Positions 4,755-24,209 of a stretch of 55,467 nucleotides of DNA are shown piece by piece. The stretch is from a virus. The notes beneath the pieces are model-generated. The model made no database searches, was not told the origin of the DNA, and saw only the letters and a list, made by a program, of their open reading frames with translations. A program made the translations under genes and the position numbers. Location of the stretch: positions 1-55,467 of IMG/VR virus record IMGVR_UViG_3300033145_000719; one strand, 5' to 3'. Numbering within the stretch: position 1 is the stretch's first letter; each line of letters starts with the position of its first letter.

Positions 4755-5021
4755 ATGAATAAAAACGAGTTGCCTTTATATATGACTGTCGAGGAAGTTG
4801 CCGAACTTTTGCGTGTAAGCCGTTCTGCGGCATGTGAATATGTGCGCCGAGGAGATATACCGTCAATTAGAGTAGGACGGTTTATCCGTGTGCCAAGAGA
4901 CCGTCTACTGTCAATGAAGCAGGATTTTGAAGACACACTGCAGAATACCTCCTCAAACACAACGAGGGGAGATACAAATAATGGCACGCGGACACATCAA
5001 GAAGTACAAAGGCAAACGTAA
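4755..5021 (+). CDS. xis: Excisionase / MerR-type helix-turn-helix protein
   Basis: Residues 1-55 form an excisionase-family winged helix: LYMTVEEVAELLRVSRSAACEYVRRG followed by IPSIRVGRFIRVPRDRL. Such proteins bend DNA at att sites and steer integrase towards excision. The gene sits directly before and overlaps the integrase, the usual xis-int arrangement. ATG 4755 follows AAGGAGGTG at 4740-4748. The C-terminus (residues ~58-88) is polar and probably disordered. A purely regulatory role cannot be excluded. Confidence 0.8.
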   Translation: MNKNELPLYMTVEEVAELLRVSRSAACEYVRRGDIPSIRVGRFIRVPRDRLLSMKQDFEDTLQNTSSNTTRGDTNNGTRTHQEVQRQT

Positions 5022-6144
5022 AGAGAGTTGGCAGGTTGTCGTCTCTCTCGGTTGGGACCCGGAAACCGGCAGATACCGGCAGAAAAGGGTTACGGTGAAC
5101 GGTACAAAAAAGGACGCTGAACGCGTCTTACGTGAGCTTTTACAGCAGGTAGAGGATGGTACTTTTGTAGACCCAGGAAAAATCACCATAGCTGAATACC
5201 TGCACAAATGGCTGGAAACCCACAAACAGAACCTTGCACCGTCAACCTACCGCAGATATAGGGTTGCTGTAGAACAGCACATAATCCCCTGTTTAGGAAG
5301 CATACCGCTGGGCAAGCTTCAGCCGCTGCAGATACAGGATTTTCTGGCTAAAGAGCTGGAGGAAGGCAGGAAGGACAACAAGAAAAGCACAGGGCGGGGG
5401 TTGACACCCGCAACCGTGCGCTATACCTACACGGTCCTACACAAGGCGTTGAAGGACGCCGTAAAATGGCAGATGCTTTACAGGAACCCCGCAGATTACG
5501 TAACCGCTCCCAAAGCCAAACGTGAAGAGCCGGTCGTGCTGGATGAACAGCATGTTAAAAAGCTGCTGAATGAACTGAAGGGCACTTATCTCTACATGCC
5601 TACATACCTGGCCATCTACACCGGGATGAGAATGGGCGAAATTCTAGGACTGACATGGCAGGACGTTGACCTTGACCGGGGCGTCGTAACCATCAGGCAG
5701 GCAAGCATACAGCGGAACGCAGACAAACCGGAATTCGGGCAGCCGAAAACGGCTAAAAGCCGGAGGCGTGTGGACATTTCACCATCGGTAGTTAGAGAGC
5801 TGAGGGAGCACAGGAAATGCCAGCTTGAATTAAAGCTGAAAGCAGGCCCACAGTGGGAAGATTTTAACCTTGTATGCAGTCATGAGAACGGCAGGCCGGT
5901 AAACCCGCCGACCCTATCCAGCAGGTTCAGCAGGACAGCGTCTAAACTAGGGCTGCCGGTAACATTTCACGGACTGCGCCATACCCACGCCAGCCTGCTT
6001 ATAAAGGCGGGAGTACCGGCAAAGGTCATTTCCGAACGCCTAGGACACAGCAGCATAAGGACCACGATGGACACTTACGGACACCTAATGGACGGCATGC
6101 AGAAGGAAGCTGCCCGCAAACTGGAAAAGCTGTTAGATGAATGA
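4981..6144 (+). CDS. int: Tyrosine-type site-specific integrase
   Basis: Phage integrase of 387 aa. It has an N-terminal AP2-like arm-binding domain (RGHIKKYKGKRKESW, ~1-55), a SAM-like core-binding domain (~60-165) and the catalytic domain (~175-385). Catalytic residues visible are Arg in TGMRMGEILGL, HGLRHTHASLL (His-x-x-Arg-His), a later His in LGHSSIRTTMDTYGH, and the nucleophile Tyr in that segment. It recombines attP with a tRNA gene in the host. I chose ATG 4981, behind GAGGGGAG, which gives the normal N-terminus; it overlaps xis by 41 bases. attP lies 100 bases downstream. Confidence 0.93.
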   Translation: MARGHIKKYKGKRKESWQVVVSLGWDPETGRYRQKRVTVNGTKKDAERVLRELLQQVEDGTFVDPGKITIAEYLHKWLETHKQNLAPSTYRRYRVAVEQHIIPCLGSIPLGKLQPLQIQDFLAKELEEGRKDNKKSTGRGLTPATVRYTYTVLHKALKDAVKWQMLYRNPADYVTAPKAKREEPVVLDEQHVKKLLNELKGTYLYMPTYLAIYTGMRMGEILGLTWQDVDLDRGVVTIRQASIQRNADKPEFGQPKTAKSRRRVDISPSVVRELREHRKCQLELKLKAGPQWEDFNLVCSHENGRPVNPPTLSSRFSRTASKLGLPVTFHGLRHTHASLLIKAGVPAKVISERLGHSSIRTTMDTYGHLMDGMQKEAARKLEKLLDE

Positions 6145-6395: not shown

Positions 6396-6417
6396 TATGA
6401 CAAAGTTATGACAAAGT
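6396..6417 (+). repeat. Tandem 11-bp repeats, candidate integrase arm sites (P' side)
   Basis: TATGACAAAGT occurs twice head to tail at 6396-6406 and 6407-6417, on the far side of the tRNA-like core and overlapping the repressor stop. With the pair at 6161-6182 this frames attP over about 257 bp. Confidence 0.45.
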
Positions 6418-7218
6418 TTTGTGTGGAGGAGGTGGAACTTTCTTCTCTATACTGACTACTACACCTATGACCTGGTCCACTTCAGGATTGACTTCTATGT
6501 CCTTGTAATTGTTGTTTGCTGCTCGCAAAAAGCACTTATCATTTTCTACCACAAAATATTTTACAGTAGCTTCACCATCATTACCTACCACAGCTATTAC
6601 AAGGTCCCCATGTTCAGCAGCAGTTGTTTTCTTAATTAACAGCCTGTCCCCCGGCTCGATGCCGACATCTATAAGGCTATCTCCCTCTACAAGAAGCACG
6701 TAATCAATGTTCAGATCAGCACGAACCGGCACGTACTCCAAAATATCTTCCGTAGCAAGTTTAGGTAAGCCTGCTCTCACCTGCCCTACAACTGGTTTTA
6801 ATGTAGATACTACAGGAACTAATTTTGATGGTCGTCGCGGTTTGTTATATCGTGATATTTCGGTCTCTAATCCTAGTATTTTCTTAGTTACTGTAGACAA
6901 TTCATCTACAAGTTTTAGGTTGGTTGGACTACTTGAAACTTTACTAAGAAGCCTTTTACGCTTTTCAGTTAATCTATCTAGCTCTGTTCTAAGTTCATCT
7001 ACAGATACATTATCACTAACACTTTCTACTATAGTGTTTACATCAGTCAAATAAAGGTCTGCTATCCTCTGTACTATATCAAGCGAAGGCATCCTGCGTC
7101 CCTGCTCATACATTCCAAGAGTACTTCTACTAACTCCTAGTGAACGAGCTGCGTCATCTAAAGATAATCTGGCACGATTACGCAACTGACGTAATTTTCT
7201 ACCAAGTTCTTTACGCAT
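6406..7218 (-). CDS. LexA/CI-type self-cleaving lysogeny repressor
   Basis: 270 aa. Residues 1-60 are a Cro/CI helix-turn-helix (LSLDDAARSLGVSRSTLGMYEQG). A charged helical linker (~75-125) follows, then an S24 peptidase domain (~140-262). The Ala-Gly cleavage site is visible in VGQVRAGLP, the nucleophile Ser in EGDSLIDVGIEPGD and the general-base Lys in GEATVKYF. The protein should dimerise, hold the prophage silent and be inactivated by RecA-stimulated self-cleavage during SOS. It is transcribed away from the Cro-like gene, with GGAGTGTG upstream of the ATG. The intergenic region holds the operator-like palindrome at 7270-7280. Confidence 0.92.
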   Translation of the reverse strand: MRKELGRKLRQLRNRARLSLDDAARSLGVSRSTLGMYEQGRRMPSLDIVQRIADLYLTDVNTIVESVSDNVSVDELRTELDRLTEKRKRLLSKVSSSPTNLKLVDELSTVTKKILGLETEISRYNKPRRPSKLVPVVSTLKPVVGQVRAGLPKLATEDILEYVPVRADLNIDYVLLVEGDSLIDVGIEPGDRLLIKKTTAAEHGDLVIAVVGNDGEATVKYFVVENDKCFLRAANNNYKDIEVNPEVDQVIGVVVSIEKKVPPPPHKTLS

Positions 7219-7498: not shown

Positions 7499-7567
7499 TA
7501 TGTATTGTTATTAATATTATACACTAATTCCCTATGTGTGTATACCCCTTATGTAAAATTATGATAA

Positions 7568-7584
7568 GGAGGTGTGGCACCTCC
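7568..7584 (+). promoter_or_regulatory. Hairpin that buries the Shine-Dalgarno of the helicase gene
   Basis: GGAGGTG (7568-7574) is followed after TGG by its exact complement CACCTCC (7578-7584), directly before ATG 7588. The ribosome site forms the 5' arm of a 7-bp stem, so translation of the helicase could be repressed unless the stem opens. Confidence 0.55.
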
Positions 7585-7587
7585 AAG

Positions 7588-9189
7588 ATGGCTACACTCA
7601 TGTTAAATACTGCCAAAAACGGCAGTGTGAAAGGTTTTATTCTCAAAACAACTTATGAAGAAAGGCATATAGCAAAATCCGCTGGTGGAAGATGGGATGC
7701 TTCATTACAGTGCTGGAAACTTCCGCTTGATGTTGAGATAGATACTCTGGTGCGGAACACATATCTGTACGTGTCAGATGACGCTAGGGAATTTTTGGCT
7801 AAACAGCAGAAAACTACAGAGCACCTGGTAAAACTGCACTCAGCTAAGGACGCTATCGTCAAGTACCCACAAAGGCTAGACCCCTATCAGCGAGTTGGTG
7901 TGCGCTTCTTGGCAGATGCCGGAAGCGCTATTTTAGCCGATGAAATGGGTCTGGGCAAAACACCACAGGCTATAAGGGCTTGCAAGGAACTTGGAGCTGA
8001 GAAGGTTCTGGTTGTAACCAAAAAGAGTCTTATACACAACTGGGTTGCTGAAATACAGCGGTGGGCACGCAAGAGCAGGACTGCGGTGCTAACTACCGCA
8101 GATTCCAAGATACCGAATACGAGGTTCATAGTAACTAACTATGAGGTTGCGGTTAAACACAAAGATAAACTGCTAAAGTGTAAGTTTGACGCTCTTGTTG
8201 TTGACGAGGCTACAGCTATAAAAAACCGTAAAGCCAAGCGTACCAAAGCCTTACACAAACTTGCCAAGAACATTCCACACAAATTTCTGCTTACTGGCAC
8301 GCCTGTTCACAACCGTCCAGATGAACTGTGGTCACTGTTGCACTGTGTAAACCCTGCTAAATACACCAGCTACTGGCGCTTTGTTGGCAGGTACTGTCTT
8401 ACGGTTGAGAACTACTGGGGCGGTTTGGACATCTTGGGAGTTAAGGATCAAGGTGCTCTTGCTGCAGAATTAGCTCCGGTTATGCTCCGACGTACTAAAG
8501 AGCTCCTAAGACTACCACCTAAGAGTTTTGAGACTATCTATGTTGGTCTGACTGATACTCAGCGGCAGATATACAATGATTTGCGCACGCGTTTGTTCGT
8601 AGAACTTGAAGGAAAAACCGTAACAGCACCGTCCGTTTTGGTACAGCTTACAAGACTGCGACAGGTAGTATGCTCTCCAGCACTTATAGGCGGTCCTGAC
8701 GAAAGTGCAAAAACGGATGCACTTTTAGACATTTTGGACGACACAGCTGGTGGACATAAAATCATCATATTTACTACCTTCGCAGAATACGTGAAACTGC
8801 TTATGCTCCGCCTGGAGCCGTGGGGCACAGTCCGAATAACCGGAGATATGACTGACAAAGCCAGGTGGAATTCAGTTGAAAAGTTCCAAAACGATCCTTC
8901 TTGTAGAGTGTTGGTCGGTACAATAGGCGCTATGGGTGAAGGACTGAACCTTACTGCCGCAGACGTAGTCATATTCCTCAACCGTGAATGGGTTCCTGCA
9001 CTAAATGCTCAGGCAGAAGACAGAGCCTACCGTCGAGGACAGTCAAAGCCGGTCCACGTTATTAACTTAGTAGCTACCCAAACAGTAGACCAGCACGTAG
9101 AGAAACTCTTATCCAAAAAACGTGACGTCGTATCACAGGTAGAGGCCCTTGAAGCTATTATCACAGGACTGCGTAATGATAGTAAATAA
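7588..9189 (+). CDS. SNF2-type DEAD/DEAH-box helicase (superfamily 2)
   Basis: About 533 aa from ATG 7588. An N-terminal ~90-residue domain (AKSAGGRWDASLQCWKLP) precedes the helicase core. Motifs seen are ADEMGLGKTPQAI (Walker A), VVDEATAIKN (a DEAH-like DEAT), LLTGTPVHNRPDELW (III), GEGLNLTAADVVIFLN (V) and QAEDRAYRRGQSKP (VI). SNF2-type phage helicases translocate on duplex DNA and are thought to help replication or recombination. It is the first large gene of the early operon. Upstream in-frame ATGs at 7534 and 7561 are possible starts. Its stop codon lies inside the first unit of the 36-nt repeat array. Confidence 0.85.
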   Translation: MATLMLNTAKNGSVKGFILKTTYEERHIAKSAGGRWDASLQCWKLPLDVEIDTLVRNTYLYVSDDAREFLAKQQKTTEHLVKLHSAKDAIVKYPQRLDPYQRVGVRFLADAGSAILADEMGLGKTPQAIRACKELGAEKVLVVTKKSLIHNWVAEIQRWARKSRTAVLTTADSKIPNTRFIVTNYEVAVKHKDKLLKCKFDALVVDEATAIKNRKAKRTKALHKLAKNIPHKFLLTGTPVHNRPDELWSLLHCVNPAKYTSYWRFVGRYCLTVENYWGGLDILGVKDQGALAAELAPVMLRRTKELLRLPPKSFETIYVGLTDTQRQIYNDLRTRLFVELEGKTVTAPSVLVQLTRLRQVVCSPALIGGPDESAKTDALLDILDDTAGGHKIIIFTTFAEYVKLLMLRLEPWGTVRITGDMTDKARWNSVEKFQNDPSCRVLVGTIGAMGEGLNLTAADVVIFLNREWVPALNAQAEDRAYRRGQSKPVHVINLVATQTVDQHVEKLLSKKRDVVSQVEALEAIITGLRNDSK

Positions 9190-9430
9190 GCCTTTGTGCA
9201 TGAGCTACCCGTAGATAATGAGCGAGCCAAAGCATTAGAGACACCTGTGAAGTAAAAGCGAGCCAAGCTGGTCAAGCCACCCATATGGGGAGAGCAAACC
9301 ACAGACCACAAGACACCCAACAACCTGTGAGTGAGCCATGCGGTGCGAGACATCCGGGCGTGGCAAGCGAGCCGTGGCATGTGAGACACCTGTAAGGTGA
9401 AAGCGAGCCATGACTAATAAGACAACCAAT
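9186..9430 (+). repeat. Array A: seven 36-nt bipartite repeat units
   Basis: Units start at 9186, 9222, 9258, 9294, 9331, 9367 and 9403. Each has block 1 (consensus GCGAGCCA) and, exactly 16 nt later, block 2 (consensus GAGACACC). Block 2 starts at 9202, 9238, 9274, 9310, 9347, 9383 and 9419. The bases between blocks vary. The helicase stop TAA occupies positions 2-4 of the first unit. Decayed units may continue to about 9490. No open reading frame spans the array. Function unknown. Confidence 0.75.
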
Positions 9431-9485
9431 ATAGAAAAGCGTGCTTCAGTTATAAAAGACTTTAGGGCGGTGGCGGAAGAGAGAC

Positions 9486-9588
9486 GCATGCTAGGTGGCT
9501 ACGTCGGCAGAGTACAGGCATGCCCACCTGAAGAATAAGTGATATCGGGCTGTAAGTCCTGCTTGAGTACCTAGCGCCAAAGTAGCCA
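9486..9588 (+). ncRNA. Candidate structured RNA segment with competing helices
   Basis: GCTAGGT (9490-9496) is complementary to ACCTAGC (9569-9575). AGGTGG (9493-9498) is complementary to CCACCT (9524-9529), and the two self-complementary GCATGC copies (9486-9491, 9518-9523) can pair with each other. These pairings overlap or cross, so they are alternatives or a pseudoknot. No gene lies here. This is a candidate only. Confidence 0.3.
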
Positions 9589-9615
9589 TGCAGGGGAGAG
9601 TGGCCCCTGCCCGCC
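9589..9615 (+). repeat. 27-nt hairpin element, copy 1
   Basis: The stem GCAGGGG / CCCCTGC with loop AGAGTGG is preceded by T and followed by CCGCC. All 27 bases recur identically at 19442-19468. In both places the element follows a 36-nt repeat unit and precedes a ribosome site. Confidence 0.75.
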
Positions 9616-9626
9616 TTGCAAAAATT

Positions 9627-9684
9627 ATAGCATTTTATAAGTTAAAGGAGGTGCAACCAATAGCAAAAATTTATAAAATGCTGT
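9627..9684 (+). promoter_or_regulatory. Long hairpin presenting the ribosome site in its loop
   Basis: AGCATTTTATAA (9629-9640) pairs perfectly with TTATAAAATGCT (9671-9682), extendable by a few pairs on each side. AAAGGAGGTG lies in the loop, and the 3' arm covers the first codons of the gene. It is probably a translation-control structure. Confidence 0.55.
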
Positions 9685-9956
9685 CACAGCGGATGAGTAT
9701 TGACCCCAGTAGCTGTATGGATGTTGACCTTGTACTGAATCTTGGCGAGAACCCCGTTGTACACGCAACAGTTAATGCAGCTGTAAAAAGTGATGAACTA
9801 CGCGACGAAGCATTTAAAGCAACAATGGAATTACTAAAACACGTAAGCCAGCAAGAGTATCGAGTTGGGACAGTAATATTGGCATGTATGTATGTACTAA
9901 ACACTTTAACAGCAAATCTGTTGGAAAAAGTTAAAGAAAACGAAAGTGAGGTGTAA
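9660..9956 (+). CDS. Hypothetical protein, ~98 aa, start codon unclear
   Basis: The only strong ribosome site (AAAGGAGGTG, 9644-9653) points to an ATA codon at 9660, giving an N-terminus AKIYKMLSQRMS. The next in-frame ATG, at 9678, is 25 bases from the ribosome site and inside a hairpin arm. The same leader (AAAGGAGTTGCAACC) precedes a true ATG at 49110, which suggests an ATG-to-ATA change or non-standard initiation here. The product is acidic and helical (DEAFKATMELLKHV) with a fairly hydrophobic segment VGTVILACMYVLNTL. No family recognised. The nuclease gene follows after 4 bases. Confidence 0.5.
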   Translation: MAKIYKMLSQRMSIDPSSCMDVDLVLNLGENPVVHATVNAAVKSDELRDEAFKATMELLKHVSQQEYRVGTVILACMYVLNTLTANLLEKVKENESEV

Positions 9957-9960
9957 CAAA

Positions 9961-10839
9961 ATGCCTATCAGAGAAGTTCATGTTTCAGAAATTACTACTT
10001 ATAAAACTTGTCCACGTATGTATCGCTATGCCTATGTAGAAAAAATAGTTCCAAAAACCCCTAGCGACAAGCTGTTTATTGGAACTGGGGTACACGCAGG
10101 ATTAGCTGCTTACTATAGCGGTAAGGACCCTATAGCAATTTATAATAAATGGCTTAATACTGAACTGGCAAGGCTATCACAAAACGCTTGGCCAGACCAA
10201 CTAAAAGAACTGGAAGAAAAAGGTGCTCTTGGTGCCAAACTCCTTGAAGCCTATGCTAAATGGGCACAAGCGAATGACTCCTTCAAGGTAATAGCGGTAG
10301 AGCAACCTTTCGCAGTGCCCATATGGACGCCAAAAGGTAGAAAATCACCTGGAGTTAGGTATGTTGGTACATTTGACGGTATTGTAGGAGATGTATATGG
10401 AAACATATGGTTAATGGAACACAAAACCTACTCACAGTTTCCAAACGAGACATTACTAAGACTTGATGAACAGGCAGGATATTATCTCGTAGCTGCTAAT
10501 CAATTGTTTCCTGATAAAAACATCGTTGGCGTTGTTTACAACGTAATTCGTAAGGTAGACCCAGCAAGAGCTAGAGGAGACATTATCAAACGCTACACAG
10601 TTTTGCGTAATCAGCATGAATTATATGAATTAAAGAAGCGTTTGTATTATGCATACAGAACTATTACCGCGGATAAAGTGTATGCTCCTTCTCCAGGACA
10701 TCACTGCACATGGAGATGTGGTTACACAACACTCTGCATGGCTGAAGATGATGGTAGTGATATGCAAGAACTTGTCAATGCATTATACAAAGAAGCAGAA
10801 GATAGAAGTGTTTTACAGGACACTGTATCTACAAATTAA
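9961..10839 (+). CDS. PD-(D/E)XK nuclease, RecB/Cas4-like
   Basis: 292 aa. It starts VSEITTYKTCPRMYRYAYVEK, the usual RecB-family opening with a first cysteine. The catalytic core has GTFDGIVGD and then LMEHKTY (an Asp...Glu-x-Lys variant of D...D/E-x-K), followed by LRLDEQAGYYLVA (motif IV Q-x-x-x-Y). The C-terminal CTWRCGYTTLC plus the early Cys could hold a 4Fe-4S cluster, as in Cas4 and AddB. It lies next to a Sak4-like ATPase and an ssDNA-binding protein, so a role in recombination-dependent replication is likely. No cas genes are present. ATG 9961 follows GAGGTGTAACAAA. Confidence 0.82.
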   Translation: MPIREVHVSEITTYKTCPRMYRYAYVEKIVPKTPSDKLFIGTGVHAGLAAYYSGKDPIAIYNKWLNTELARLSQNAWPDQLKELEEKGALGAKLLEAYAKWAQANDSFKVIAVEQPFAVPIWTPKGRKSPGVRYVGTFDGIVGDVYGNIWLMEHKTYSQFPNETLLRLDEQAGYYLVAANQLFPDKNIVGVVYNVIRKVDPARARGDIIKRYTVLRNQHELYELKKRLYYAYRTITADKVYAPSPGHHCTWRCGYTTLCMAEDDGSDMQELVNALYKEAEDRSVLQDTVSTN

Positions 10840-10862
10840 CCGAGAGGAGGTTTTATCGTAAG

Positions 10863-11666
10863 ATGACACGGCCACGCGTTTTAACACCACCGACTAAACC
10901 TAATATTGGAAGGTTGTCAGCAATAACGAGACAAACTGTAAAAACTATTATCTTTGGAGATAGCGGTGTTGGAAAAACCAGTCTGCTTGTAACAGCACCA
11001 AGACCACTACTTGTAGTAAATGTTGATAATAGTATAGCATCTCTACCTACTGATGTTGATGGTATTGATGTATACCCCAACCCAGAACTGGGAAGACCTG
11101 TAGAAACTTGGGAGGAGTTTACGGAGTTTATTGAATGGCTTATGCGTACAGGTGCTAAAGAGTATGAAACTGTTGCAATAGACACTGCAACAGAAGCAGG
11201 CGAAAAGCTGTTAAAAACGCACATATTAAGCAACAAAGGACCTACAGGAAGAGTGCACCCACTAGTAATGAGCCAAGCTGATTATGGTTTATATGCAGAA
11301 CTGTTCCTTGAGCAGCTACGCAGACTTCGTGACCTTCCATGCAACGTAGTAATAAATTGCCAAACACAAGATTTGGTAATTGATGACCCTAGTGGTGCAA
11401 CAGAATTGTACCGATTTGCTGCATTTGGTGGTAAAAAGACTCCAGAAACAGCACCAGCTTTGTTTGATATTGTGGGATATTTGGGTGTTGTAGAAGATGA
11501 AGATACAGAAGAACTGGTAAGAAGACTTTTGTTACAGCCTGTGAATAATCGCAGAGCTAAAATACGCACAAAACACGGCGTTAAGGCCCCACTTGTAGTT
11601 AATTCACCAAACCTTACTGAATTGTTTAAGCTTGTAACAGGCACAGGCACAAATAATAAAAATTAA
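10863..11666 (+). CDS. Sak4-like RecA-fold ATPase (ssDNA annealing/recombination)
   Basis: 267 aa. Walker A is IIFGDSGVGKTSLL (~residues 29-42) and a Walker B-like segment is ETVAIDTATEAG (~102-113). Phage proteins of this AAA_24 type, related to Sak4, load on ssDNA and work with a partner SSB in strand annealing. The partner fits: the next gene is DUF669-like, a known neighbour. The nuclease gene upstream completes a recombination trio. The ATG lies 13 bases after GAGGAGG. Confidence 0.8.
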   Translation: MTRPRVLTPPTKPNIGRLSAITRQTVKTIIFGDSGVGKTSLLVTAPRPLLVVNVDNSIASLPTDVDGIDVYPNPELGRPVETWEEFTEFIEWLMRTGAKEYETVAIDTATEAGEKLLKTHILSNKGPTGRVHPLVMSQADYGLYAELFLEQLRRLRDLPCNVVINCQTQDLVIDDPSGATELYRFAAFGGKKTPETAPALFDIVGYLGVVEDEDTEELVRRLLLQPVNNRRAKIRTKHGVKAPLVVNSPNLTELFKLVTGTGTNNKN

Positions 11667-11684
11667 TATAAGGAGGAATGAAAC

Positions 11685-12122
11685 ATGAAACTAGTGCTTA
11701 ATTTCGATGGTGTGGACATTGAAGGACCGGAGCCGGTTCCAGCAGGAGTGTACAATGCGAGGGTGGATTCATCACAATGTGAAGTGAAAAAATCACAGAA
11801 TGGCAATGAGTACTTTACTCTAACATATGTCATCGAAAACCACTCAGAATTTGCTGGAAGAAAAGTTTATGAATACTACACGCTAACTAAGAATAGCATG
11901 TGGAAGATTTGGCGCGTACTTAAGGCCCTCGGCGTAGTCAGCAACAATACCAGTCATGAAAAACAGAATCACAAACAGGTCGTAGTAGACTTTCGTGAAA
12001 TTCATAACAAACCATGCCGTATCAAAGTCAGCCAAGAGGAGTACCAGGGAAGGATACGCAACCGTGTAGATGAAGTTGTGTCTGCTGAAAACACTCCTGC
12101 CCAGAAGAAAATAGCATTTTAA
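11685..12122 (+). CDS. DUF669-type phage single-stranded DNA-binding protein
   Basis: 145 aa. It has the DUF669 layout: an N-terminal strand (LVLNFDGVDIEG), EPVPAGVYNARVDSSQCEV, a GNEYFTLTYVIEN core, FAGRKVYEYYTLT, and late strands with PCRIKVSQEEYQGRIRNRVDEV. It ends QKKIAF rather than in a classic acidic SSB tail. DUF669 proteins act as SSB-like partners of Sak4-type recombinases, matching the upstream gene. AAGGAGGAATGAAAC precedes the ATG. Confidence 0.78.
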   Translation: MKLVLNFDGVDIEGPEPVPAGVYNARVDSSQCEVKKSQNGNEYFTLTYVIENHSEFAGRKVYEYYTLTKNSMWKIWRVLKALGVVSNNTSHEKQNHKQVVVDFREIHNKPCRIKVSQEEYQGRIRNRVDEVVSAENTPAQKKIAF

Positions 12123-12128
12123 ACAAAG

Positions 12129-12157
12129 ACCGCCCCAACCAACACGGTTGGGGCGGT
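12129..12157 (+). terminator. Strong intercistronic hairpin without U-tract
   Basis: ACCGCCCCAACC and GGTTGGGGCGGT form a perfect 12-bp stem with loop AACAC, just after the DUF669 gene. On the plus strand no T run follows, so it may stabilise or process the mRNA, or pause polymerase, rather than terminate. Confidence 0.6.
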
Positions 12158-12197
12158 AACACCCACAAACAAATATAAGCGTAAGGAGGTTTTTGTA

Positions 12198-12896
12198 GTG
12201 GCTGTCCCACGTGAAAAATTTCAAGCAACTCCGGAACCTACCTTGAGGTGGTTGACGGACGTTTACATGCAGGTACAGAAACTCAGAGTTGCAGTTGGCA
12301 ACCGCCTCGAAGCAGCATTACGCCAGCAAGATACTACCCAACCTGTAACATACATCAAAACACTGCATAACAGACTTTACACATTAGAAAAAAGCCTATC
12401 GAGTGAAATGACCAATGCAGTTGTCAGCCATCCAACATGGCCTTGGCTGTCAAAGGTTAAAGGCGTAGGTCCGACATTGGCTACAAAGCTACTGGGTCTA
12501 ATAAGTGACATATCAAAAGCACCTACTGTAAGTTCACTGTGGCGCTACGCCGGATACAGTGTTATAGATGGTAAAGCTGAAAGACCTGTTAAAGGAGAAA
12601 AACTTCACTACAACAAACGTCTTAAAACAACATTATACCTTATTGGCGATAGCTTTATCAAGCACAGAAGCCCATTCCGCAGAATCTATGATAATGCAAA
12701 GAGATACTACAAGGCCAACCGCCCCGACTGGACTGCAGGTCACATTCACAACGCTGCACGTAGAAAAATGATAAAAACGTTTCTTGCGTGTCTATGGATT
12801 GTCTGGAGAGAGGAAGTAGGCTTATCTACAAGACCGCTCTATGTAGAAGAAAAACTAGGACACACATCAATCTACAGACCCGAAGACTTCATCTAA
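12198..12896 (+). CDS. Stand-alone IS110-type transposase C-terminal domain (Tnp_20-like) protein
   Basis: 232 aa, GTG start behind AAGGAGG. Residues ~80-115 (LSKVKGVGPTLATKLLGLI, then SSLWRYAGYSV) are a helix-hairpin-helix plus core typical of the Tnp_20 domain of IS110/IS116/IS902 transposases. The continuation LKTTLYLIGDSFIKHRSPFRRIYDNAK matches that domain's helical end. The N-terminal RuvC-like DEDD domain is absent, and where IS110 enzymes carry the catalytic Ser (YS-SG type motif) this protein reads IDGKAERPVKG. It is therefore probably not an active transposase but a co-opted DNA/RNA-binding protein in the replication operon. No IS ends flank it. Its stop lies inside repeat array B. 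Confidence 0.72.
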   Translation: MAVPREKFQATPEPTLRWLTDVYMQVQKLRVAVGNRLEAALRQQDTTQPVTYIKTLHNRLYTLEKSLSSEMTNAVVSHPTWPWLSKVKGVGPTLATKLLGLISDISKAPTVSSLWRYAGYSVIDGKAERPVKGEKLHYNKRLKTTLYLIGDSFIKHRSPFRRIYDNAKRYYKANRPDWTAGHIHNAARRKMIKTFLACLWIVWREEVGLSTRPLYVEEKLGHTSIYRPEDFI

Positions 12897-13025
12897 GCCA
12901 TAAGACCTAGTACGCACAATAGTGATGTGCGAGCCAACTGTGCCGAGATATCCTAAAGCACTGAGCGAACCGTTGTGCAAGAGACATCCAATAAACATGA
13001 GTGAGCCATATGCAAAAAGACAACT
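12893..13025 (+). repeat. Array B: 36-nt bipartite repeat units
   Basis: Block 1 (GCGAGCCA type) starts at 12893 (CTAAGCCA), 12929, 12965 and 13001, exactly 36 nt apart. Block 2 (GAGAYATCC or AAGACAAC) starts at 12945, 12981 and 13017, always 16 nt after block 1. The stop TAA of the upstream gene occupies positions 2-4 of the first unit, as in array A. Weaker traces continue to about 13090. The 235-base stretch 12897-13131 has no gene. Confidence 0.72.
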
Positions 13026-13131
13026 GTTTTGTATAAAGTGAACAACACGTACACAAAGCGATACACTTGCAAATATACAAGCCATAGCATTTACATCATA
13101 GTCTTAATAAGCCACCTGGGAGGTGATGTTC

Positions 13132-15701: not shown

Positions 15702-16121
15702 ATGAAGATTAAACTATTAGACAAAAACTGTATGCCCTACAAGAAGTACTACGGTGATGCTGGTTGGGATTTAAAAGCTAAACTTGATAAGCCAGTAGAA
15801 CTTTCTCCGTTTACACCGCAGACAATACCAACAGGAATAGCTGTAGAAATTCCCTACGGTTATGTCGGTGATATTCGTCCGAGAAGTAGTTTAGCTAGAA
15901 AAGGCGTAGTCGCACAGTATGGGACAGTTGACTCAACTTATCGAGGGGAAGTGAAAGTAACACTTATCAACCTCATCAGTCTTCCTGCAATAATCGAGCC
16001 TTACGAACGTATAGCTCAACTGGTCGTAGTTCCTGTTTTAACTGGCGAACTCAAAGAGGTAAATGTGCTTAGTAAAACAGAACGGGGTTCTTGCGGGTTT
16101 GGTAGTACAGGGAGATTTTAA
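15702..16121 (+). CDS. dut: Trimeric dUTPase
   Basis: 139 aa, standard length. All five motifs are visible: GDAGWDL (I), RPRSSLA (II), GTVDSTYRGEVKV (III, with the catalytic Asp), YERIAQLVV (IV) and RGSCGFGSTGRF (V). It hydrolyses dUTP to dUMP, keeping uracil out of DNA and feeding thyX. This fits the uracil-DNA-glycosylase fused to the phage polymerase. ATAAGGAGG precedes the ATG. TGTWACA box clusters flank the gene on both sides. Confidence 0.95.
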   Translation: MKIKLLDKNCMPYKKYYGDAGWDLKAKLDKPVELSPFTPQTIPTGIAVEIPYGYVGDIRPRSSLARKGVVAQYGTVDSTYRGEVKVTLINLISLPAIIEPYERIAQLVVVPVLTGELKEVNVLSKTERGSCGFGSTGRF

Positions 16122-16248: not shown

Positions 16249-18381
16249 ATGTCCGATGCAGTAAAACAACTATCAGTCGTAAAACGTGACGGTAGTATAG
16301 TACCATTTGATGCTTCTCGTATTAAGGAGGCGATACACCGAGCTTTTAAAGCCACTAACGAGGTAGATTACATTGACCTTGCAACTGGCATGGTGACAAG
16401 TACAGTAACGTCAAAAATCGTAGCTGATAGCCTGTCCGGTACAAACAAAGTGACAATAGAACAAATACAAGATATGGTGGAAGATGCGCTTATGTCATCA
16501 GGATTTAGCACAACTGCTAAAGCCTACATTCTTTACCGAGACCAAAGACGTCAAATAAGAGATATGAAATCTCTCGTTTCTCAAAATTTAATTGACGCCT
16601 ACCTGGACGAAGCTGATTGGCGTATAAAGGAAAACGCCAATGCAGGCTTTTCCCTTCAGGGAATGAATAACTATCTGGTCGGAGCACTTGCTGCAGAATA
16701 CTGGCTTGAAAAAATCTACTTGCCTGAAGTTAGAGATGCACATAAGAACGGAGACCTACACCTACATGACCTCGGAATAACTGCGCCGTACTGTATGGGT
16801 TGGGACCTTCACCAATTAATAGCAGAAGGTTTTAACGGAGTTCCTGGATACACGGAAGCAGCGCCTCCAAAACATTTCCGTTCTGCTCTTGGTCAGGTTT
16901 ATAATTTCCTATACACACTTCAAGGCGAGGCTGCTGGAGCACAGGCTTTTTCAAATTTTGACACCTACCTTGCTCCATTTATTAGGGCAGACAATTTAAA
17001 CTACGAGCAGGTAAAACAAGCCTTGCAGGAGACAGTGTTCAACTTGAATACCTCAACGAGAGTCGGGGGACAGTGTCCTTTTACCAACGTAACTCTTGAC
17101 CTAAAAGTACCGGAATTCATGGCTTCTGAACCAGTTATTATCGGCGGTAAGGCTATGCCGTATTCCTATGAAGATTGTCAGGAAGAAATGTCTATGTTCA
17201 ACAAAGCCTTTGCAGAAGTTCTGTACGAGGGTGATGCTGGTGGTCGTGGATTTACCTTCCCAATACCGACTTACAACGTAGGTCATGACTTCCCGTGGGG
17301 AACACCTGAAGTTACTGCGATATTCCGTACCACAGCCAAATACGGAAGTCCTTACTTCGCTAACTTCATGAACTCAGACATGCGTCCGGAAGACGTTCGC
17401 AGTATGTGCTGCAGGCTCAGGTTAGACACCTCACAACTTCTACGTCGCGGCGGCGGTCTTTTCGGCGCTAATCCTAAAACTGGGTCTGTCGGAGTTGTTA
17501 CGCTGAACCTCTCCCGTATTGGTTATCTAGCTAAAGATGAAGATGATTTCTTCGACAGGTTGGCTAAGGTCGCTGGATTGGCTGTTACAGCTTTAGAAGT
17601 TAAACGTAAAACTGTTGAGCGTTTTGCAGGTGCTGGATTATACCCGTTCACTTCACGTTACTTACGTGATGTGAAAAGACGTTTTGGTAAGTTATTTGCA
17701 AACCACTTTTCAACCATTGGCGTTGTAGGTGGTAATGAAATGTGCTTAAACCTCTTGGGAGTGAGTGTAACACATCCTGATGGTCAGAAATTTACTGGTA
17801 AAGTGCTGGACTTTTTACAAGAGTTTTGTTGCAATGCTCAAAAACGTACAGGAAGTCTTTATAACCTCGAAGCTACACCCGCTGAAGGGTGTTCCTACCG
17901 GCTTGCCAAAATTGATAAAGAAAGGTTCCCGAACATAATTGTTGCTAATGAAAAAGCATGGAAAGAGGGTGCTACCCCATACTATACGAATTCTACATTA
18001 CCTCCTGTAGATATGTCGGATGACATCTTTGAAGTATTACACAATCAAGATAAGCTTCAAGTTAAGTACACAGGTGGGACAGTAGTACATGTTTGGGTAG
18101 GAGAGACATCACCAGACCCTATAGCAAGTGCTGTACTTGTGAAACACATTTTCGAGAACTATGAATTACCTTACTTATCATTAACCCCAACATACTCCGT
18201 ATGTCCAACTCACGGTTATGTTTCTGGAAAACATGATACTTGTCCAAATTGCGGTGCTGAATGTGAAGTATACTCCAGAGTCGTTGGATACTATCGCCCT
18301 ATTAAACGCTGGAATGCCGGAAAGCAGGCAGAGTTTAGGGATAGGAAAACGTTTGACAAGTCGGTCCTGCGAGGTGATTAA
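16249..18381 (+). CDS. nrdD: Anaerobic (class III) ribonucleoside-triphosphate reductase
   Basis: 710 aa. The N-terminal ATP-cone (VVKRDGSIVPFDASRIKEAI) binds the allosteric effector. The central barrel has CRLRLDTSQLLRRGGGLFGA and TGSVGVVTLNLSRIGY. A zinc site (CPTHGYVSGKHDTCPNCG) precedes the glycyl-radical loop RVVGYYRPIKRWNAGKQ. It reduces NTPs to dNTPs using a radical installed by NrdG. It works only without oxygen, so the host grows anaerobically. ATG 16249 follows AAAGGGG. nrdG starts one base after the stop. Confidence 0.95.
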   Translation: MSDAVKQLSVVKRDGSIVPFDASRIKEAIHRAFKATNEVDYIDLATGMVTSTVTSKIVADSLSGTNKVTIEQIQDMVEDALMSSGFSTTAKAYILYRDQRRQIRDMKSLVSQNLIDAYLDEADWRIKENANAGFSLQGMNNYLVGALAAEYWLEKIYLPEVRDAHKNGDLHLHDLGITAPYCMGWDLHQLIAEGFNGVPGYTEAAPPKHFRSALGQVYNFLYTLQGEAAGAQAFSNFDTYLAPFIRADNLNYEQVKQALQETVFNLNTSTRVGGQCPFTNVTLDLKVPEFMASEPVIIGGKAMPYSYEDCQEEMSMFNKAFAEVLYEGDAGGRGFTFPIPTYNVGHDFPWGTPEVTAIFRTTAKYGSPYFANFMNSDMRPEDVRSMCCRLRLDTSQLLRRGGGLFGANPKTGSVGVVTLNLSRIGYLAKDEDDFFDRLAKVAGLAVTALEVKRKTVERFAGAGLYPFTSRYLRDVKRRFGKLFANHFSTIGVVGGNEMCLNLLGVSVTHPDGQKFTGKVLDFLQEFCCNAQKRTGSLYNLEATPAEGCSYRLAKIDKERFPNIIVANEKAWKEGATPYYTNSTLPPVDMSDDIFEVLHNQDKLQVKYTGGTVVHVWVGETSPDPIASAVLVKHIFENYELPYLSLTPTYSVCPTHGYVSGKHDTCPNCGAECEVYSRVVGYYRPIKRWNAGKQAEFRDRKTFDKSVLRGD

Positions 18382-18382
18382 A

Positions 18383-18976
18383 ATGCGTATTGGAGGATTT
18401 CTGAAACTATCTCTATGTGATTGGCCCGGGCACCCGGCAGCGGTAGTATTCACCCAGGGATGTAACTACCGCTGTCCGTGGTGTCACAACCCCTCTCTAG
18501 TTTATCCGGAGTGTTTCGGCTCACAAATACCGCAGGGCGATGTTCTGAAGTGGATTTCCGAAAATAAAGACATGTTGGATGGCGTAGTTGTTACAGGCGG
18601 TGAGCCGACTGTTCAGGAAGACCTGCCCGACTTTCTGAAAGAGCTAAAACGTATTGGTATGCCAGTGAAACTAGACACAAACGGTTCCAACCCGGAAATA
18701 GTTAGAGAAGCGCTGGAGACTGGTTTGGTGGAATGGGTAGCTGTTGACTATAAACTACCGTTTCGTCAATACGACATCGTTACATCCGAAGGTTCTGAAG
18801 CGGGTCTTACAGTCTTGAAAACTGCCCGCATGGTTTTGGACTTTGAGAAGGGTGTTGTGAGAACTACCATTGTACCTGATATACACACAGGCGAAATGCT
18901 CGCAGAGATGCAAGAGGATGTTGGCGCAACTATAGTAACACAACCATATGTAGCACCTAAATCAAATTTGAATTAG
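18383..18976 (+). CDS. nrdG: Anaerobic ribonucleotide reductase activase, radical SAM
   Basis: 197 aa from ATG 18383, behind GCGAGGTG. The radical-SAM cluster motif CNYRCPWC is visible near residue 28, followed by VVVTGGEPTVQEDL, the SAM-binding GGE motif. It generates the glycyl radical on NrdD using a 4Fe-4S cluster and S-adenosylmethionine. Family members that work on NrdD alone are of about this size. It is adjacent to and co-transcribed with nrdD. Confidence 0.92.
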   Translation: MRIGGFLKLSLCDWPGHPAAVVFTQGCNYRCPWCHNPSLVYPECFGSQIPQGDVLKWISENKDMLDGVVVTGGEPTVQEDLPDFLKELKRIGMPVKLDTNGSNPEIVREALETGLVEWVAVDYKLPFRQYDIVTSEGSEAGLTVLKTARMVLDFEKGVVRTTIVPDIHTGEMLAEMQEDVGATIVTQPYVAPKSNLN

Positions 18977-19349: not shown

Positions 19350-19415
19350 ATGAGTGCAAAAGCCGACCTTAACCAGGTGGCAAAGGCTAGTAAAGAGTTG
19401 CTGGAAGGGGGGTAG
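19350..19415 (+). CDS. Possible 21-aa peptide gene ending in a repeat unit
   Basis: ATG 19350 follows GAAGGTG, and the frame MSAKADLNQVAKASKELLEGG ends at TAG 19413. That TAG occupies positions 2-4 of a 36-nt-type repeat unit, as do the stops of the helicase and Tnp_20-like genes, which supports real translation here. Function unknown. Confidence 0.35.
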   Translation: MSAKADLNQVAKASKELLEGG

Positions 19416-19436
19416 ACGCCTAAGACAGAGAACACC
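19412..19436 (+). repeat. Single 36-nt-type repeat unit (locus C)
   Basis: Block 1 reads GTAGACGCC at 19412 and block 2 reads GAGAACACC at 19428, again 16 nt apart. It is followed directly by the second copy of the 27-nt hairpin. Confidence 0.5.
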
Positions 19437-19441
19437 TGTCG

Positions 19442-19468
19442 TGCAGGGGAGAGTGGCCCCTGCCCGCC
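19442..19468 (+). repeat. 27-nt hairpin element, copy 2
   Basis: Identical over 27 bases to 9589-9615: stem GCAGGGG / CCCCTGC, loop AGAGTGG, then CCGCC. It precedes AGGGAGG and the start of the gene at 19497. Confidence 0.75.
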
Positions 19469-19496
19469 ATGCATTATAAAAGGGAGGTAATAAAGG

Positions 19497-20464: not shown

Positions 20465-20587
20465 ATGACAGAATTTGTGTGTAAAGTCAATAAACACAGG
20501 AGGCCGTTAAGCTATGATAATTATGAACATTGGCCTAGATGGTGTTTAAATGAGGAAGTGATACAAAATGGTACCATTCCCTGGTAA
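20465..20587 (+). CDS. Short hypothetical protein, 40 aa
   Basis: ATG 20465 opens a 40-codon frame beginning MTEFVCKVNKHRRPLS and ending at TAA 20585. It lies behind GGTGGGG and overlaps the first 20 bases of the methyltransferase gene, suggesting coupling. Rich in Trp and Arg. No family recognised. Confidence 0.4.
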   Translation: MTEFVCKVNKHRRPLSYDNYEHWPRWCLNEEVIQNGTIPW

Positions 20588-21122
20588 GAAGTATAATATT
20601 ATCTATGCTGACCCTCCTTGGCGATTTGAAACTTGGTCTGATAAAGGTAAGGGAAGGTCTGCTGAAAAACATTATCTTTGTATGTCACTGAAAGATATTA
20701 AGAAATTACCCATTAAAGATATAGCTGCTGATAATTGCACGCTATTTTTATGGGTCATCTTCCCATTGCTCAAAGAAGGGCTTGATGTAATGGAAGCGTG
20801 GGGGTTTAAATATAAAACCTGCGGCTTCGTTTGGATAAAAAAGAATAGAAAATCTAACGGCTTTTTCACCGGCCTTGGATACTACACAAGAGCAAATGCA
20901 GAACTCTGTTTATTAGGAACAAAAGGCAAACCGTTAAAACGACAATCAAAAGCAATTAGACAGTTGGTAGTCAGTCCAGTCAGAGAACATAGTAGAAAAC
21001 CTAATGAAGTCAGAGAAAGGATTGTAAAATTGTTTGGAGACTTACCTCGGATAGAATTATTTGCTAGGGAAACACCAGAAGGATGGAACGTGTGGGGAAA
21101 TGAGGTAATATGCAACCAATAA
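20568..21122 (+). CDS. MT-A70-family N6-adenine DNA methyltransferase
   Basis: 184 aa. Catalytic motif IV DPPW is visible in IIYADPPWRFETW; later motifs include TLFLWVIFPLLKEG, YTRANAELCLLGTKG and REHSRKPNEV. This family transfers methyl groups from SAM to adenine N6. In phages it is often a solitary protector against host restriction. No restriction endonuclease gene is nearby. ATG 20568 lies within the end of the preceding short gene. Confidence 0.88.
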   Translation: MVPFPGKKYNIIYADPPWRFETWSDKGKGRSAEKHYLCMSLKDIKKLPIKDIAADNCTLFLWVIFPLLKEGLDVMEAWGFKYKTCGFVWIKKNRKSNGFFTGLGYYTRANAELCLLGTKGKPLKRQSKAIRQLVVSPVREHSRKPNEVRERIVKLFGDLPRIELFARETPEGWNVWGNEVICNQ

Positions 21123-21896: not shown

Positions 21897-24209
21897 ATGC
21901 CGCTAACCGCTATAACTTTGTGTAGAGGTATAGACATGCGTCCTGAAGGTGCAGATTGTGAGAACTGCGGGTTGTCTGAATGTCCGTTCGTCCCTGGGGA
22001 CGGACCGGACACCGCAAGGATTGTAATCTGCGGCGAGGCTCCTGGTGACACAGAGGTGGCAAAGGGTATTCCTTTTGTAGGTAGAGCTGGACAGCTACTG
22101 GATGCTGTACTACAGGAGGTGGGGATTGACCGGAACAAGGAATGCTACATTACAAACGCTTGCCTTTGTAGACCTATACCGCATAGAACGCCTAAAGCTA
22201 AAGAGATAAGCGCTTGCAGACAGAGGCTTATTGCAGAGATTAAAAGTCGGGCACCGGAGCTGGTACTTGTGCTTGGTGCCGTAGCTCTACGTGCGGTGTT
22301 GAAGAAAGCGAGTATTGCTGCTGAGCGAGGTTTTATAGTTTGGTCGAGTGAGCTTGAAGCGTGGGTAGCTTCTACCTACCACCCTGCAGCAGTCCTGCGC
22401 AAGCCTGGGCTTTATATAGACCTCGTGAAAGACATCCGAAGGGCAGTGCAGGTGCTGGAAAAGCCTCCTGCTACACCATATTCCGTAGATGACCTACAGT
22501 ATGTCCTCATAGAAACACGTAACGATGTAGACATGCTTGTGGAAAGGTTAGCACAGGTTGGTGATATTGCACTTGACACAGAAGTGGCATCAGACGGTAG
22601 CATATTATGTAGCGGAATTTCATGGCGTTCAGGAACAGCAGTAGTTGTTACGGAAAAAGCTCTTAAAGACTCTTATACAAGAGAGCAACTAGGGCAGGCA
22701 ATACAGAAAAAGACTATCATTGGACACAACCTTAAGTACGACTTACAGGTCCTATGGCGTTATGGTATACGTGGTGTCAAAACAGGATTTGACACTATGC
22801 TTGCGCATTACACTATTGATGAGCGCAGAGGAACGCACAGTCTCAAGAAGCTGGCTAGGGAGTATTTCAACGCTCCTGACTACGCTAAAGATATTAAGAT
22901 GTATATTGACTCGATGGAAAATTGTCCTAAAGATATTATGTATCGTTATAACGCAGCAGATGTAAGCTACACATACGCTTTAGCTGAGGTTTTGCAGCAG
23001 AAATTAGATTCAAACGGCAGAAAGGTTCTTACGGAATTACTACATCCAGCAAGTGATGTTTTAGCTGAAATGGAGTACCTTGGCGTTATGGTTGATGTAA
23101 ACTACTTAGCTAAATTAGATAAAGAGTTATCCAAAGAAATAACGGATTTAGAAAAACAGTTATATGAGACTGCTGGTAGAGAATTTAACCCAAATTCGCC
23201 AAAACAGTTGGTGGAGCTTTTATATCACGAGTTAGAGCTACCTGTACCTGGTAGACTTTCTACCGATGTGGATGCTTTGAAAGCTATAGCACAGTACCAT
23301 CCGCTACCAGGTTTGTTGTTAAAGTATCGTGACAGGAAGAAGTTCCACTCAACATATGTAACAAGTCTCCGAGAAGCTGCGGACAATGATAACCGAGTGC
23401 ATACAACATTTAACCTGCACGGAACAGTTACAGGAAGATTGTCCTCATCTAATCCAATAAACCTCCAGAATATTCCACGTGAATCAGATGCAAGAAACAT
23501 TTTCGTAGCAACACCGGGATATACTCTTGTTCAGGGCGACTTATCGCAGGCTGAAGTAAGGGTGTTGGCATGGTTCTGTAAGGACAAAGGACTTATAGAG
23601 GCACTCTCTGCAGGAGGCGACATGCACATACGTACAGCGTGTTTAATGTTCAAGAAGAAGCCGGAGGAAGTTACAGATAAACTGCGAACTGCGGCAAAGA
23701 GGTTGACCTTTGGTATTATATATCAAATGAGTGTTCATTCGCTTGCTGACGAACTAAGTATTACAGCAACTGAAGCTGAAGAGCTTATTGAAAAGTTCTT
23801 TTCGGCCTTCCCAAAAGCACGAGACTGGATCAAATTAGTGCAAGACGAAGTTATGCGGACTGGTAAGATAACTACGCCGTTCGGCAGGACGAGGCGCTTC
23901 GACTTTGTAACCAGAGAGAACCGAAACAGTGTACTGCGGCAGGCTGCAAACACACCGATACAAAGCGTAGCTTCCGACATAACTCTTAAAGCCTTAATTC
24001 GATTGGGACGCAAATTGAAAGGTTCTGACGACACAAGGATGCTGTTGACGGTGCACGATTCTATAGTTTTGGAAACGAAGGAGGACGTACAGGAAGTAAG
24101 CAAAATGCTTCACGCAGAGCTTTGCCGTCCTGTATTGGATAATGTTCCTCTCAAAGCAGATATAAAGGTAGGACAAAGATGGGGGTCGCTGAAGGATATT
24201 GAATTTTAA
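21897..24209 (+). CDS. Uracil-DNA glycosylase (family 4) - DNA polymerase I fusion
   Basis: 770 aa. Residues 1-185 are a family-4 uracil-DNA glycosylase: Cys21/Cys24 and later cysteines for a 4Fe-4S cluster, GEAPGDTEVAKGIPFVGRAG, ITNACLCRPIPHRTP and STYHPAAVLR. Residues ~200-370 are a proofreading exonuclease with all motifs (ALDTEVAS; IIGHNLKYDL; RYNAADVSYTY). The rest is a family A polymerase: QGDLSQAEVRVLAW (motif A), RTAAKRLTFGIIYQ (B) and LLTVHDSIVLE (C). The 5'-3' nuclease domain of cellular Pol I is absent. This should be the replicative polymerase, coupled to uracil detection. ATG 21897 follows GAGGAGGTG. Confidence 0.93.
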   Translation: MPLTAITLCRGIDMRPEGADCENCGLSECPFVPGDGPDTARIVICGEAPGDTEVAKGIPFVGRAGQLLDAVLQEVGIDRNKECYITNACLCRPIPHRTPKAKEISACRQRLIAEIKSRAPELVLVLGAVALRAVLKKASIAAERGFIVWSSELEAWVASTYHPAAVLRKPGLYIDLVKDIRRAVQVLEKPPATPYSVDDLQYVLIETRNDVDMLVERLAQVGDIALDTEVASDGSILCSGISWRSGTAVVVTEKALKDSYTREQLGQAIQKKTIIGHNLKYDLQVLWRYGIRGVKTGFDTMLAHYTIDERRGTHSLKKLAREYFNAPDYAKDIKMYIDSMENCPKDIMYRYNAADVSYTYALAEVLQQKLDSNGRKVLTELLHPASDVLAEMEYLGVMVDVNYLAKLDKELSKEITDLEKQLYETAGREFNPNSPKQLVELLYHELELPVPGRLSTDVDALKAIAQYHPLPGLLLKYRDRKKFHSTYVTSLREAADNDNRVHTTFNLHGTVTGRLSSSNPINLQNIPRESDARNIFVATPGYTLVQGDLSQAEVRVLAWFCKDKGLIEALSAGGDMHIRTACLMFKKKPEEVTDKLRTAAKRLTFGIIYQMSVHSLADELSITATEAEELIEKFFSAFPKARDWIKLVQDEVMRTGKITTPFGRTRRFDFVTRENRNSVLRQAANTPIQSVASDITLKALIRLGRKLKGSDDTRMLLTVHDSIVLETKEDVQEVSKMLHAELCRPVLDNVPLKADIKVGQRWGSLKDIEF

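Follow-up and report, generated by a model that had tools for sequence, protein, structure and literature searches.

What kind of element are the two arrays of short, evenly spaced repeats carried by the virus record IMGVR_UViG_3300033145_000719 of IMG/VR, and which protein do they work with? The window analyzed here is that full record of 55,467 bases. A sequence-only reading had described a bipartite unit of 36 nucleotides (nt) that begins at gene stop codons at three loci, had found no matching family for it, and had proposed an RNA element bound by a multimeric phage protein, possibly the Transposase_20 (Tnp_20)-like product encoded just before the second array. It is practically certain that the window carries a genuine dual-repeat TIGR-TasA system with one TasA protein and two arrays on the same strand. 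The family was therefore there to be named, as TIGR-Tas systems were described in 2025 (Faure et al. 2025, PMC12045711), and membership in it lends support to the idea of an RNA that would be bound by a multimeric phage protein. The features concerned are the following.

9185..9441, plus strand: TIGR array A, seven 36-nt units (one of 37), first edge truncated (AATAAGCCT) and holding the TAA of the SNF2-like helicase gene, last edge 3'-truncated (AGCG, 9438-9441)
9187..9189, plus strand: TAA stop of the open reading frame (ORF) 7534-9189, inside the truncated first edge of array A
9221..9256, plus strand: example of a full unit, with edge AGCGAGCCA, spacer A AAGCATTAG, loop AGACACCTG and spacer B TGAAGTAAA
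12198..12896, plus strand: tasA, GTG start, encoding a solo Nop-domain Tas protein of 232 amino acids (aa) without nuclease domain
12892..13041, plus strand: TIGR array B, four units, first edge truncated (TCTAAGCCA) and overlapping the tasA stop codon, last edge 3'-truncated (AGTGA, 13037-13041)
12894..12896, plus strand: TAA stop of tasA, inside the truncated first edge of array B
19411..19446, plus strand: claimed single unit, one nt short and with a poor edge; discarded as a TIGR unit

Read in register, each unit consists of an edge repeat, spacer A, a loop repeat and spacer B, all of 9 nt, with the consensus AGYGAGCCR for the edge and AGACAYCCR for the loop. The units of array A start at 9185 (truncated), 9221, 9257, 9293, 9330, 9366 and 9402, with one 37-nt interval, and those of array B at 12892 (truncated), 12928, 12964 and 13000. 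The unit numbers, the fixed spacing of the blocks, the 37-nt interval and the variability of the intervening bases had all been noted correctly beforehand, while the block boundaries, slightly off, were corrected by the 9/9/9/9 layout of the relatives. Both arrays lie in noncoding stretches, A after the SNF2 gene and B after tasA, and both open with half an edge (..TAAGCC) and close with the other half. They were rejected as CRISPR arrays because two different 9-nt repeats alternate here, where a CRISPR array would have one repeat of about 25-36 nt and spacers of much the same length. A type III toxin-antitoxin system with ToxI-like 36-nt repeats was also rejected, since neither the ORF after array A nor the primase after array B has a ToxN-family Pfam match. 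An Rfam search gave no match at gathering score in the window and one chance match at relaxed E in the array A region.

To score the arrays, edge and loop weight matrices were trained on units of other phages only, with the window excluded, and both strands were scanned. The ten top sites in the window were all nine full units of A and B plus a lone site at 26753. The longest chain of sites at 35-37-nt spacing comprised 6-7 sites in the window and a single one in every shuffle, so the spacing stood up to shuffled sequence, and a simple pattern search returned 10 matches where 2.8 were expected. The lone site at 26753 was discarded because it falls within the range of resampling (4/60 resamples reach 19). 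The single unit proposed at 19412-19436 fared worse, as 2,124 plus-strand sites outscore it and, when it is scored as a partial unit, 1,873 sites on both strands equal or better it. The array loci are therefore two and not three.

The candidate partner turned out to be a Tas Nop-domain protein. Its ORF has a weak Transposase_20 match, yet the product scored 219 bits against the NCBIfam model TIGR_Tas (NF052498, cut-off 100) and only 23 bits against the IS110 model (cut-off 140). Sequence matches in the PDB were to TasR (9mty, E=1e-33) and TasH (6e-24) and spanned residues 12-230, the alignment being limited to the Nop region (from TasR residue 110). An AlphaFold model built from 16 homologues (predicted local distance difference test score 86) retrieved with Foldseek the TasR-tigRNA-DNA and TasH complexes, then IS621/ISCro4 and then Nop5. 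No RuvC or HNH match to Pfam was found in the 232-aa product, and the N-terminal catalytic DEDD domain of IS110 is absent. Judged from its sequence and predicted fold, the product is TasA by the published nomenclature, because it is a Tas-family Nop protein without a nuclease domain. An IS110-type transposase remnant with a bridge-RNA-like element would account for the Transposase_20 domain, Nop and IS110 RNA-binding domains are related, and IS621 is among the fold matches. Nevertheless, the missing DEDD/RuvC domain, the model scores and the tandem 36-nt dual-repeat arrays, which differ from a bridge RNA, leave this explanation with a negligible probability.

The system resembles the dual-repeat TIGR-TasA type (PMC12045711; example FpTIGR) in most respects: a phage-borne solo Nop-domain protein, an adjacent array, short edge and loop repeats that alternate with 9-nt spacers in a 36-nt unit, and box C/D motifs common to edge and loop. 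Dual-repeat TIGR loci are recognized by alternating edge and loop repeats of 8-12 nt and by an array adjoining tas upstream and/or downstream, and both traits are found here. Published arrays have a 5'-truncated first edge and a 3'-truncated last edge (PMC12045711), as do A and B. In contrast to that type, the window has a second array four genes upstream of tas, at a distance of about 2.8 kb; both arrays start within a stop codon, neither has an evident terminator and the loop repeat is more degenerate. For its family the system is ordinary, the unusual traits being the distance of array A from tas, the start of A and B in stop codons and the lack of a terminator. TIGR-TasR and TIGR-TasH (PDB 9mty, 21kl, 9vzx) share the Nop fold, the coiled-coil dimer region and the array logic, but the protein of the window has no RuvC or HNH nuclease and is expected to bind rather than cut. 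Fromanvirus mycobacteriophages have stem-loop TIGR arrays, again next to a Tas homologue and with box C/D motifs and two hypervariable 9-nt spacers per unit; however, their units are held by palindromic stems whereas the RNA structure of array A is not unusual (fold z -0.45). With the IS110/IS621 bridge-RNA transposases the likeness is confined to the related RNA-binding domain, as the window has a tandem array in place of a bridge RNA.

About 38 relatives were recovered, most of them with the same 36-nt array next to tas; the scans returned 36 viral loci, one contig each of Ornatilinea apprima and Cloacimonadota, and the Microcystis phage Mvi-JY20. A search of genome contigs with the single TasA protein found nothing; with a TasA alignment it found Ornatilinea apprima and the Cloacimonadota metagenome-assembled genome. 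In a motif-free test of periods from 30 to 45, 36 nt was the best period for most of the 15 closest loci and scored far higher than in shuffled sequence. The exceptions had their top-scoring repeat elsewhere in the locus (L004, L015) or another period (L006), and a 36-nt array beside tas is still visible in all three. Chaining on AGCGAGCCA placed an array next to tas in most loci, so the phased unit that a profile search was expected to find in other genomes is indeed present there. Across the loci 353 units were parsed, and lengths of 35-38 nt are common. Box D covaries between edge and loop from locus to locus (AG/AG in 19, TG/TG in 7), and such covariation is a published hallmark of a symmetric protein dimer. 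Since the last spacer base is A or G in about 93% of units, box D in the clade of the window may be RWG, which would leave 8 nt free to vary. The exonuclease and AAA_24 genes were checked for a conserved linkage with tas among the loci, and none was found.

Among these relatives the repeats persist and the spacers change, a pattern expected of guides that follow changing targets. Between the sister phages G006 and G007 (about 92% identical) and between G027 and G028 (about 85%), exchanges, gains and losses of units and of single spacers have left the repeats unchanged. Near-identical spacers with different partners are commoner within arrays than between them (spacer A, 0.7% versus 0.27%; spacer B, 1.6% versus 0.33%), a difference partly confounded by base composition. 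Together, changing spacers, kept repeats and recurring near-identical spacers favour guides that track changing, foreign targets. In three loci (L011, 4725-5530; L003, 1984-2530; L008, 3861-4570) pairs of units were seen in which both spacers look like diverged copies of one guide pair, for example GACGCGGAG/CGATGCTGA and GACACGGAG/CGATGTGTA, with nearly identical repeats. In one further locus (L023, 2080-2260) variants of TATTGTACA make up four of the five spacer A sequences, and spacer B joined to the reverse complement of spacer A resembles promoter -10 regions, in that locus only.

The stop codons at the array starts raise a separate question. In both A and B the TAA of the upstream gene occupies positions 3-5 of the 9-nt first edge, so this part of the earlier description stands for two loci and falls with the third. 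Of 23 arrays with a recognisable truncated first edge, 8 have within that edge the stop codon of an ORF no shorter than 50 aa, compared with 2% of random positions. This enrichment is what would favour an element whose stop-codon position matters and which is read just after translation termination, as had been suggested. The register, however, varies among the relatives: measured from the array start, the stop may lie as far as 46 nt before it or 38 nt after it, and the start of some arrays falls 14-20 nt inside the coding sequence. Thus the stop codon is not a fixed part of the element. A half edge requires no more than (T)AGCC or (T)AAGCC, and a TAA or TAG followed by GCC fits by itself. 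A termination-coupled element is accordingly very improbable, and we read the overlap as a result of arrays lying close against the ends of genes and opening with a truncated edge, not as a translation signal. This placement suggests that the guides derive from mRNA 3' ends.

The anatomy of the arrays, the family and predicted fold of the protein, and the conservation of arrays and protein in relatives are results of the present analysis; the steps of the mechanism are taken from published work on TasA, TasR and TasH. Published arrays are processed to 36-nt tigRNAs with their ends in the edge repeats, Tas being required and non-cutting (PMC12045711). TasA likewise binds 36-nt RNAs, and the two spacers pair with opposite strands over about 18 bp, free of any protospacer adjacent motif (PMC12045711). 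In the phage, A and B would be transcribed as the 3' ends of the mRNAs of their upstream genes, and cleavage of the transcripts within the edge repeats, which needs Tas and probably a host RNase, would release 36-nt tigRNAs. A TasA dimer would then bind the tigRNA through box D (AG) and box C (CC[AG]) of the edge and loop repeats, spacers A and B pairing with opposite DNA strands, about 18 bp in total. Because it has no nuclease domain, TasA would open, bend and occupy the site without cleavage, and the occupied site would block transcription or replication of other mobile elements. As a whole, a TIGR-TasA system working by this tigRNA mechanism is very probably the best explanation of the locus.

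The biological role is a more tentative matter. The analysis gives the blocking of rival mobile elements a probability a little short of even. The fuller version, in which a temperate phage silences its competitors with a nuclease-free, RNA-programmed DNA binder and fast-changing guides kept in the 3' ends of operon mRNAs, is possible but we hold it with less confidence. If true, silencing of competitors would be a weapon of phages similar to CRISPR interference. Alternatively, the same TIGR-TasA machinery could regulate the phage's own or host genes, or assist integration. The phage is temperate, with an integrase and an S24-type repressor, binding of its own DNA by a TasA without nuclease would be harmless, and help to an integrase or regulation has been suggested (PMC12045711). 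On the other hand, paired-spacer matches are not enriched in the phage's own genome or in the relatives' own contigs, and the rapid turnover of spacers among near relatives is unlike fixed regulatory sites, so we regard this alternative as rather unlikely.

Several observations weigh against the preferred reading of a working, guide-directed TIGR-TasA system. The first loop repeat of array B is degenerate (GTACGCACA), and the loop repeats of the window are more degenerate than those of its relatives, with the diverged form AGACAYC[CT]R; therefore part of the system may be decaying. No plus-strand site resembling a rho-independent terminator lies directly after A or B, although such a terminator is typical of TIGR arrays and not defining. 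The target searches are a further point. Self-targeting was searched in two geometries, spacer A followed by the reverse complement of spacer B, as derived from the published 8-nt 3' overhangs, and the opposite one, with gaps of 0-2 (plus -1 in the window) and mismatched pairs as control. In the phage's own genome, paired spacers had no more matches than mismatched pairs, and the same held for 319 units, nearly all from relatives, in their own contigs; cross-targeting in 1.42 Mb of sibling contigs gave no clear excess. A scan of IMG/VR with guides A6 and A3 only (8+8 nt) returned 13 and 7 scattered matches, none of them 9+9 and with no plausible shared target. The absence of guide matches in the phage's own genome narrows the target possibilities.

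Some of these observations could also mean that the arrays are decaying remnants, with TasA perhaps still made but the guides no longer working; the degenerate first loop of B, the 37-nt unit of A, the diverged loops and the lack of a terminator all fit. Yet tasA is intact and retains the clade-invariant motif KGEKLHYN, the matrices trained outside the window still score all nine full units as TIGR units, and units of 35-38 nt are common in relatives. Decay is thus improbable. Under the preferred reading the phage offers a compact TasA case, with two arrays, about ten guides and one partner gene.

In about 74 mycobacteriophage records a Tas homologue adjoins a conserved noncoding gap of about 330 nt; in Fromanvirus (L141, L144-L152) the gap lies upstream of a gene annotated as 'transposase'. 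In the eight records that were aligned the gap proved to be a stem-loop TIGR array, its five units having conserved stems and 9-nt spacers that are hypervariable. As the host is known, these phages are a good place for a search of natural targets. Their guides gave no match above control in eight sibling genomes, nor by short BLAST, a search of untested sensitivity. A synonymous-looking guide pattern between Euphoria and SarFire was dropped, since it involved three differences only and other similar pairs showed no codon phasing by eye.

The remainder of the window places the system in its genomic context. An integrase (4927-6144), an S24/HTH repressor (6406-7218), a replication and recombination block (SNF2-like helicase, PD-(D/E)XK exonuclease, AAA_24, DUF669, primase/helicase and a fusion of uracil-DNA glycosylase with DNA polymerase I) and, on the opposite strand, a structural block (major capsid, terminase, portal, tape measure) identify the window as a temperate tailed phage. 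In that fusion (21897-24209) the glycosylase domain is of family 4 and is joined to the N-terminus of the polymerase; the same phage encodes a dUTPase (15702-16121). An anaerobic ribonucleotide reductase NrdD with a radical-SAM activase-like protein (16249-18976) points to an anaerobic host, and a DNA adenine methyltransferase of the MT-A70 type lies at 20568-21122. The noncoding stretches 3' of the arrays (9442-9588 and 13042-13122) have no Rfam match at gathering score, and the predicted RNA stability there is ordinary (z -0.36 for 9430-9640, 0.41 for 13020-13125). Finally, a near-identical 32-nt hairpin (TGCAGGGGAGAGTGGCCCCTGCCCGCC[TA]TGCA, stem of 7 bp) occurs at 9589-9620 and 19442-19473, where none is expected by chance, and its 21-nt core has no match in IMG/VR. 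Both copies sit a short distance 5' of a ribosome-binding site, and the pair is possibly a shared 5' regulatory element.

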